In this document: piece by piece, positions 22,189 to 24,202 of the stretch | How the letters are laid out: every line of letters begins with the position of its first letter | Numbering within the stretch: position 1 is the stretch's first letter | Assembly (NCBI GenBank): GCA_937863605.1 | Contig: CALMGN010000285.1 | Span: 1 to 35,533, forward strand | Reading direction: 5' to 3' | DNA length: 35,533 nucleotides | From: an uncultured Anaerolineaceae bacterium | Lineage (GTDB): Bacteria; Chloroflexota; Anaerolineae; Anaerolineales; Anaerolineaceae | Notes under the pieces: model-generated | Databases searched by the model: none | Seen by the model: only the letters and a program-made list of their open reading frames with translations | What the model was told of the DNA's origin: nothing | Made by a program: the position numbers and the translations under genes

Positions 22189-22216
22189 TTGACAAACCCA
22201 TTTTTCGGTCTATAAT
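22189..22216 (+). promoter_or_regulatory. Consensus sigma70-type promoter for the cysK leader
   Basis: TTGACA (22189-22194), 16-nt spacer, TATAAT (22211-22216). Confidence 0.85.
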
Positions 22217-22222
22217 CAGACA

Positions 22223-22461
22223 ATATTATGAGATATATGATAAATATTGAGGAATTCGAAATGCAACATTGCATGTGTCTGAGGCGGGGTTGGCGAGCAC
22301 CGCTGCCTTAGACTGAACCGATAAAATTATCGTCAGCCAGCAGACTTAGGCAGTGGACTGCAGCCCCGCAGGGATTTTGGTTTTGCGCGGCAACCGTCCG
22401 CTGTTTTTAATTCTGCTGGCTTTTGTTTTTAATCACACTTTATTCGTCTGAGGAGTTTTGA
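22223..22461 (+). promoter_or_regulatory. Structured 5' leader of cysK, candidate cysteine-responsive transcription attenuator
   Basis: 22300-22315 pairs with 22341-22356; alternative perfect 10-bp pairing 22335-22344 (AGCCAGCAGA) with 22412-22421 (TCTGCTGGCT) followed by TTTGTTTTT. Confidence 0.6.
22261..22311 (+). CDS. Candidate 16-aa leader peptide MQHCMCLRRGWRAPLP with Cys codons 4 and 6
   Basis: SD GAGGA at 22249-22253, 7-nt spacing to ATG at 22261, TAG stop at 22309-22311; an in-frame ATG at 22228 would give 27 aa but lies ~5 nt from the predicted TSS. Confidence 0.65.
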   Translation: MQHCMCLRRGWRAPLP

Positions 22462-23394
22462 ATGAAAATCGCTAATAATGTTACCGACCTGATCGGCAAT
22501 ACCCCACTCGTCCGCCTTAACCGCATCACCGATGGAGCTGTAGCCCAGGTCGTCGCGAAACTTGAGTTCTATAACCCGGCCCACTCGGTCAAAGACCGCA
22601 TCGGTGCATCCATGTTGGACGCCGCGGAACGCGAGGGCAAGATTAACAAAGATACCATCATCCTGGAACCAACCAGTGGTAATACCGGCATCGCGCTGGC
22701 GTTCGTGGCGGCTGCCCGCGGGTACAAAGCCACCATGGTGATGCCCGAATCAGCCAGCAAAGAGAGGCGCATCCTGATGCGCGCCTACGGCGCTGAACTT
22801 ATTTTGACACCTGCCAGCGAAGGCATGGCTGGAGCCATCCGCAAAACTGAGGAATTAGCTGCCAGCGACCCGCGCTACTTCGTCCCGCAGCAGTTCCAAA
22901 ACCCGGCTAATCCCGAAATTCACCGCCGCACCACAGCAGAGGAAATATGGAATGACACCGACGGCAAAGTGGATATTTTGGTGGCCGGCATTGGAACGGG
23001 CGGTACCATCACCGGGGTCGGCGAGGCTATTAAAGCCCGCAAGCCGTCCTTCCGTGTGGTAGCCGTCGAACCGGATGCGTCCGCAGTGCTTTCAGGTGAA
23101 CCGAAGGCCCCACACCCGATTCAGGGTATTGGAGCGGGTTTTATTCCGGAAATTCTGAATACCAAAATATACGACGAAATCGTCCGCGTCAAAAATGAAG
23201 ACGCTTTCCGCACCGCCCGCGATGCCGCTTCCCGCGAGGGCTTGCTGGTGGGCATCTCTTCTGGCGCCGCCATTTGGGCAGCGATTCAGGTCGCCAAACG
23301 CCAGGAAAACGCTGGCAAAATGATTGTGGTCATTATCCCATCCTTCGGCGAACGCTACCTGAGCACCCCATTGTTCGCCGATCTGGTTGACTGA
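22462..23394 (+). CDS. cysK: Cysteine synthase A
   Basis: [16 protein letters not shown]...[19 protein letters not shown]...[16 protein letters not shown]...[13 protein letters not shown]. Confidence 0.96.
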
Positions 23395-23437: not shown

Positions 23438-24202
23438 ATGGTACGTTTATTTAACAAAGCCAAGTCCGATATTCAATCCGCATTTGACCGTGACCCGGCA
23501 GCCCGCCGGCCCCTGGAGATCCTGCTAGCCTACCCCGGCGTGCACGCCGTCTGGGGGCACCGGCTGGCTCACTGGTTGTGGGTCCATCGCTTTAAGCTGA
23601 TCGCCCGCTGGCTGTCGCATGTCAACCGCTTCCTGACCGGAATCGAAATTCACCCCGGCGCCGTGATCGGTGATAAGTTGTTCATCGACCACGGCATGGG
23701 CGTGGTCATTGGCGAGACCGCCCAAATTGGCAACAACGTGACCCTGTATCATGGGGTCACGCTCGGCGGCGTCAGCCTGGAAAAGGGCAAGCGCCATCCG
23801 ACCATCGAGGATGACGTGGTGATCGGCGCCGGCGGCAAGGTGCTCGGCAATATCACCGTTGGACGCGGCAGCCGGGTGGGTGCGAACGCGGTTGTAGTGC
23901 ATTCCGTTCCGCCGAACTCGGTAGTCGTGGGTGTTCCCGGGCAGGTAATGGTGCGCACCAAGCCGCAGCACCAACCCGACCTGGATCACGACAAGATGCC
24001 GGATACTATAGGGCTGACCCTGGAATCTGTGATGGCGCGGCTTGAAGCCCTGGAGACCCAGGTTCACACGCCTCATTTGGAAAGTAACGGCGGTAATGGA
24101 CATGCCAAATCCGGATCACGCGAATCGCACATCCTGGAGCACCCGGTATTGATCCATGCTCCTGAGCACGGCGTATGGCGCGGAGACGATTTTTCGATCT
24201 AA
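23438..24202 (+). CDS. cysE: Serine O-acetyltransferase
   Basis: LeftH hexapeptide repeats: [72 protein letters not shown]. Confidence 0.95.

Follow-up and report, generated by a model that had tools for sequence, protein, structure and literature searches.

The leader of the cysK-cysE operon in the window, i.e., the complete 35,533-nucleotide stretch of DNA from an uncultured Anaerolineaceae bacterium that was analyzed here, very probably controls transcription by ribosome-mediated attenuation in response to Cys-tRNA(Cys). This reading is supported by a computed ORF, a promoter, a terminator, covarying alternative helices and a conserved spacing between Cys codons, helix strands and stop codon; translation of the upstream ORF (uORF), stalling of the ribosome and the response to cysteine are predicted from the sequence. 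A first-pass annotation of the same DNA had already proposed a cysteine-sensing attenuator in a Chloroflexota-like genome. The genome indeed belongs to the Chloroflexota, and to the family of Anaerolinea, and the proposed attenuator gains support from the sequence comparisons below, including the recurrence of the element before other cysteine and sulfur genes.

A sigma-70-type promoter (TTGACA-N16-TATAAT) is located at positions 22189-22216 of the forward strand, on which all features of the operon lie. Its TTGACA (22189-22194) and TATAAT (22211-22216) boxes are separated by a spacer of 16 nt and match the consensus at 12 of 12 positions, which makes it the sole perfect match between 21000 and 25000. 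The promoter had earlier been placed ~240 nt before cysK; this distance holds for the expected transcription start at ~22223, but the -35 box lies 273 nt upstream of the gene. Sequence inspection identified a Shine-Dalgarno sequence, GAGGA (22249-22253), 7 nt from the ATG at 22261, and the short ORF expected for a ribosome-mediated attenuator is therefore present, with predicted translation. The uORF encodes the leader peptide MQHCMCLRRGWRAPLP (22261-22311) and ends with the stop codon TAG at 22309-22311. The sensor codons TGC ATG TGT (Cys-Met-Cys) occupy 22270-22278, with the Cys codons TGC at 22270-22272 and TGT at 22276-22278. Upon re-inspection, all previously given coordinates of the Shine-Dalgarno sequence, the uORF and the Cys codons proved correct. 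Downstream, a second Shine-Dalgarno sequence recognized by inspection (GAGGAG, 22450-22455) precedes cysK (22462-23394), which is followed by cysE (23438-24202) as the second gene of the operon. As had been claimed, these genes make cysteine: NCBIfam models identified them as cysteine synthase A (TIGR01139, 461.7 bits, cut-off 350.95) and serine O-acetyltransferase (TIGR01172, 243.9 bits, cut-off 210.65), both exceeding the cut-off.

The fold of the window leader had a z-score of -4.9, and none of 200 shuffles folded equally well. In the minimum-energy fold, GTCTGAGGC (22277-22285) pairs with GCCTTAGAC (22305-22313), forming a 1:2 protector hairpin (22277-22313). Segment 1, GCGGGGTTG (22284-22292), is the 5' strand of a long-range helix, P1, of which CAGCCCCGC (22361-22369) is the 3' strand, and this pairing is supported by covariation. 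Segment 1 therefore has two alternative partners, segment 2 in the 1:2 hairpin or 22361-22369 in P1. Segment 2, CCGCTGCCT (22300-22308), is located directly 5' of the uORF stop codon and forms the 5' strand of the antiterminator helix P2, in which its alternative partner is segment 3, AGGCAGTGG (22348-22356); in the OFF state, segment 3 lies within the inner terminator stem. The terminator 5' arm, AGCCAGCAGACTTA (22335-22348), is enclosed by P2 in the antiterminator state. Together with the 3' arm (22408-22421) it forms a 13-pair stem, followed by the U tract TTTGTTTT up to 22430, so that a strong intrinsic terminator is positioned closely upstream of cysK-cysE. The first-pass annotation had called the leader attenuator-like and left the RNA undescribed; a terminator and mutually exclusive helices are now found in it.

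In the proposed mechanism, RNA polymerase would start at ~22223 and a ribosome would begin translation at 22261. At low levels of charged tRNA(Cys), this ribosome would stall at UGC 22270 or UGU 22276 and open the base of the 1:2 hairpin, by which segment 2 would be freed. Free segment 2 would pair with segment 3 in P2, which would be closed by the long-range helix P1 (22284-22292 with 22361-22369), and polymerase would read through into cysK-cysE with the terminator 5' arm enclosed by P2. When cysteine is plentiful, the ribosome would proceed to the stop codon and cover segment 2 (in most relatives segment 1 as well). The antiterminator could then not form, and the terminator (22335-22421 plus the U tract) would halt transcription. 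If this mechanism is true, the bacterium most likely makes cysteine only under cysteine shortage.

The absence of the uORF or its Cys codons from related genomes had been named among the observations that would speak against the attenuator, and an alignment of related leaders had been proposed. A search for cysK was positive in 109 of the 147 genomes of the family, and the regions upstream of 90 cysK copies were inspected. The core, consisting of Cys-x-Cys, a 5-nt spacer and GCGG, was retained in 81 of these, and the position of the cognate codons with respect to the RNA switch is thus constant. Cys-Met-Cys is also retained in two of the remaining nine regions (L020 and L031), where the RNA is built differently. 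When these two leaders were read by eye, GGGAGCA was seen to pair with TGCTCCC, and a separate GC-rich terminator was recognized; they constitute a putative second Cys attenuator design in the family of the window. For one of the other seven (L023, genome G032), the element precedes cysE elsewhere in the genome (L272), and in genomes G116 (L273) and G142 (L271) cysK leaders are atypical and the element precedes cysE.

A wider set, assembled from all searches, comprised 188 distinct leaders. In 187 of these, an ATG upstream of the first Cys codon is in frame with it and separated from it by no stop, compared with 4 and 24 for the remaining frames. ATG combined with a stop codon 5-30 nt from GCGG was found in 178 leaders (1 and 18 in the other frames). 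The pattern and the model used for collecting the leaders imposed no upstream ATG. Judged by these counts, the uORF of the cysK-cysE leader is a conserved element and no chance ORF. Its frame, stop position and both Cys codons are conserved, while the N- and C-terminal residues of the leader peptide vary, which is the outcome that the proposed alignment had been expected to give. Promoters matching at least 10 of 12 positions were detected in 169 of 186 related leaders, at a median distance of 46 nt upstream of the first Cys codon, compared with 4 of 186 after shuffling. A simple rule recognized an SD-like motif in 96 of the 188 leaders, and some related leaders may start leaderless. Among the 78 family leaders having a terminator, 65 carry the stop codon 7-13 nt past the start of GCGG, and a terminating ribosome would therefore cover segments 1 and 2. 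The stop codon of the window and of its nearest relatives in the genus is found at +25 from GCGG, within reach of segment 2.

The alternative helices were analyzed in a structure-blind MAFFT alignment of 68 leaders. The covariation score of P1 and P2 was 0.232 compared to a shuffled mean of 0.154; it was reached by none of 500 shuffles, and the best slid version scored 0.143. P1 was 90% paired and P2 64% paired in this alignment. A set of 96 sequences gave 0.271 compared to 0.157, with an alignment that was fitted to the structure. Examples of the pairings are GCGGAGATA:TATCTCCGC, GCGGAATAG:CTATTCCGC and GCGGGATGA:TCATCCCGC. A P1 pairing score of at least 18 was obtained for 96% of the leaders and 8.7% of the shuffles, and a terminator score of at least 25 for 72.5% of the leaders and 0.5% of dinucleotide shuffles. 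Mutually exclusive helices are thus present, as judged by covariation for P1 and P2 and by the shuffle test for the terminator.

Ribosome positions were simulated by masking footprints during equilibrium folding of a transcript truncated just past P1. With the ribosome masked on either Cys codon, ~13 P2 pairs remained in the truncated transcript, compared with 2.3 (1.5-4.5 across three footprints) when the stop codon was masked. In this equilibrium model, the antiterminator was permitted with the ribosome on a Cys codon and forbidden with the ribosome on the stop codon in 180 of 184 leaders (178-181 of 184 across footprints +8, +11, and +14), as expected when ribosome position sets the outcome. 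Equilibrium folding without a ribosome also permitted the antiterminator. For the full leader with its terminator, equilibrium folding failed to separate the ribosome states and favored the terminator in nearly all cases, and the switch would therefore depend on co-transcriptional order.

Cys-x-Cys was present in all 188 leaders of the wider set, which was partly selected by a pattern or model containing TGC/TGT. The first Cys codon is TGC in 181 and TGT in 7, and the second is TGT throughout, including 22276-22278 in the window. Since long ORFs of the same loci favor TGC (1079 TGC and 471 TGT, ~7:3), the invariant second TGT is not explained by codon usage. GCGG is nearly invariant as well, and nucleotide conservation goes beyond the needs of codon sensing and pairing. 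An extended version of the attenuator, in which the Cys-x-Cys/GCGG core is a dedicated sensing module beyond codon counting, is conceivable but unlikely. The invariant UGU and the near-invariant GCGG would then imply that codon identity, or a direct contact of the RNA with the ribosome or with tRNA(Cys), is read, and the module would have spread class-wide, building a cysteine regulon in which the untranslated RNA is ON and the terminating ribosome is the OFF signal.

The same conservation could also point to a metabolite-binding riboswitch for cysteine, O-acetylserine or a similar compound, in which GCGG/CCGC and TGC-N3-TGT are aptamer nucleotides and the ORF is incidental. The strongly conserved nucleotides of TGC-N3-TGT-N5-GCGG and a second codon that never exchanges TGT for TGC in 188 leaders would fit such an aptamer. 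However, the frame statistics of the ATG and the stop codon just past GCGG argue for a translated ORF, as do the seven leaders in which the first Cys codon has changed from TGC to TGT and the codon between the two Cys codons, which varies and is never a stop. Moreover, the outer P1 pairs and the whole of P2 are conserved as pairing rather than as sequence, and Rfam returned nothing credible for the window leader, either at the gathering threshold or at E up to 10. A riboswitch is therefore considered very unlikely.

Alternatively, the position of the ribosome on the uORF could expose or hide the Shine-Dalgarno sequence of cysK. Such translational control is known for mycobacterial Cys uORFs (cited in PMC13236596), as in M. 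smegmatis, and 15 of the 188 leaders are under the terminator threshold. For the leaders studied here it is highly improbable: nearly all of the cysK Shine-Dalgarno sequence is unpaired in the minimum-energy fold of the window leader, and all of it in the centroid, and 173 of the 188 leaders have an intrinsic terminator with U tract (score of at least 20) ahead of the gene.

There is hardly any probability that the leader, instead of reading the Cys-tRNA level, senses a general slowing of translation or an antibiotic, or that the ribosome is stalled by a nascent arrest peptide (Cys-x-Cys-x-x-Arg). The third codon after the second Cys encodes Arg in all leaders, as in some arrest peptides. Yet this Arg is explained by its CGG codon, which forms a strand of P1, the L020 and L031 leaders retain Cys-Met-Cys without the Arg context, and the downstream genes are cysteine and sulfur genes.

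T-box and SAM elements control cysteine and methionine genes in other phyla. S-box control of such genes is cited in PMC1262725. The T-box, the SAM riboswitch and a chance ORF in a constitutive leader were rejected, with next to no probability left to them, since Rfam matched neither a T-box (specifier loop and antiterminator; gathering threshold or E up to 10) nor a SAM (S-box) aptamer in the window and returned at E up to 10 only chance microRNA/sRNA hits, SAM riboswitches are readily detected elsewhere in the family, and frame, codon and stop are conserved.

The attenuator element was searched for in further genomes with a covariance model, R1, which is absent from Rfam. R1 matched in 100 of the 147 family genomes. 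Among 298 genomes sampled from the class Anaerolineae it matched in 51, and among 400 sampled from the phylum Chloroflexota in 37; all 37 belong to the Anaerolineae, and the element was not found by R1 in other Chloroflexota classes among these 400. A pattern scan of 84,980 species yielded 110 stretches; 77 of the 80 matches listed are from Chloroflexota, and the isolate Anaerolinea thermolimosa IMO-1 is among those listed. The three listed matches outside the phylum (Modestobacter, Gemmataceae, and Streptomyces) were rejected as chance; no sulfur gene of the reference set lies downstream of them. The genome of the window has one detectable copy, the leader at 22189-22461.

Genes downstream of the element encode cysK, a second OASS-like synthase, CBS-like paralogues, cysE, PLP enzymes of Cys/Met metabolism, nitrite/sulfite reductase, a rhodanese/mercaptopyruvate sulfurtransferase-like protein, DUF4395, a Cons_hypoth698 membrane protein and, as a candidate judged by sequence look alone, a peptide-type ABC substrate-binding protein. 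The cognate amino acid is thus made or used by downstream genes. On the strength of this gene content, the element-bearing genes are taken to be a class-wide cysteine/sulfur regulon in Anaerolineae. At four loci (L277, L282, L283, and L284; three with weak model scores) the element lies upstream of genes for proteins resembling ABC transporter substrate-binding proteins, which suggests that cysteine regulates the uptake of a peptide or a compound similar to glutathione. Its position upstream of DUF4395 membrane proteins at six loci (L103, L114, L137, L280, L286, and L287) suggests that this family of unknown function is linked to the cysteine/sulfur economy.

Several loci showed further arrangements. 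One (L122) contains tandem model matches at 1501-1611 and 1848-1962 on the minus strand, the second being weak (23 bits), which are possibly double attenuators. One genome (G005, contig C6) carries two cysK copies ~56 kb apart (L044 and L045) with identical leader cores. SAM-I riboswitches (RF00162, 84-90 bits) were detected just 3' of cysK and on its strand, which is the minus strand of the locus, at L022 (1195-1297), L023 (1361-1462) and L031 (1329-1429); leaders for cysteine and for methionine may thus be adjacent to each other.

The recurrence of one conserved RNA element in front of many different genes would be unusual for a leader-peptide attenuator, and it allows a covariance model and a regulon to be built for a poorly studied class. 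The element offers a testable cysteine-control circuit, names DUF4395, a rhodanese and a peptide-type ABC transporter as candidate genes of the cysteine economy, and is a clean system in which to study the invariance of one Cys codon (UGU) and a possible role of the terminating ribosome itself as the OFF signal.

The leader resembles the E. coli trp/his-type attenuators in having a leader peptide led by a Shine-Dalgarno sequence, cognate codons, mutually exclusive 1:2, 2:3 and terminator helices, a U tract and a biosynthetic operon downstream. It differs from them in its amino acid, cysteine, and in the additional long-range helix P1, which closes the antiterminator and whose 5' strand is coding sequence directly following the Cys codons. 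A ribosome terminating on the uORF would cover both P1 and P2 in most relatives, and, in contrast to the trp attenuator, equilibrium folding predicts read-through as the untranslated default. With T-box and S-box leaders it shares terminator-based control of sulfur amino-acid genes, but according to Rfam it has no tRNA- or SAM-binding domain.

Among Cys leaders, the uORFC-8-2 motif, located before cysS in Rhodobacterales, likewise combines a uORF containing two Cys codons with an intrinsic terminator and is predicted to attenuate transcription through the ribosome at these codons (PMC8632094). That motif has tandem Cys-Cys at positions 14-15 and two stems, and is found in alphaproteobacteria in front of cysS only (PMC8632094), whereas the present element has Cys-x-Cys, the long-range P1 and many cysteine/sulfur genes in Anaerolineae. 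Membership in uORFC-8-2 was rejected, as tandem Cys codons and cysS are replaced here by Cys-x-Cys and by cysK or other sulfur genes. Cys leader peptides were predicted in 2005 in Mycobacterium, Propionibacterium, and Bifidobacterium, without a recognizable conserved terminator (PMC1262725), and polycysteine leaderless ORFs of M. smegmatis are described as controlling cysteine genes by translation attenuation (Canestrari 2020, as cited in PMC13236596). These actinobacterial leaders also place a Cys-codon uORF upstream of cysteine genes; as described in PMC1262725 and cited in PMC13236596, they have runs of Cys codons near the stop.

The first-pass annotation had considered that the leader may be undescribed. 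This holds for the Chloroflexota, for which neither Rfam nor the searched literature, with thin coverage of subscription journals, contained a Cys leader-peptide attenuator, but not for Cys leaders in general, which are known from Mycobacterium cys operons and Rhodobacterales cysS. As far as this literature shows, it would be the first cysteine leader-peptide attenuator described in the phylum. Leader-peptide transcription attenuation is a known principle; the taxon, the long-range closing helix P1 and the breadth of the regulon appear to be new.
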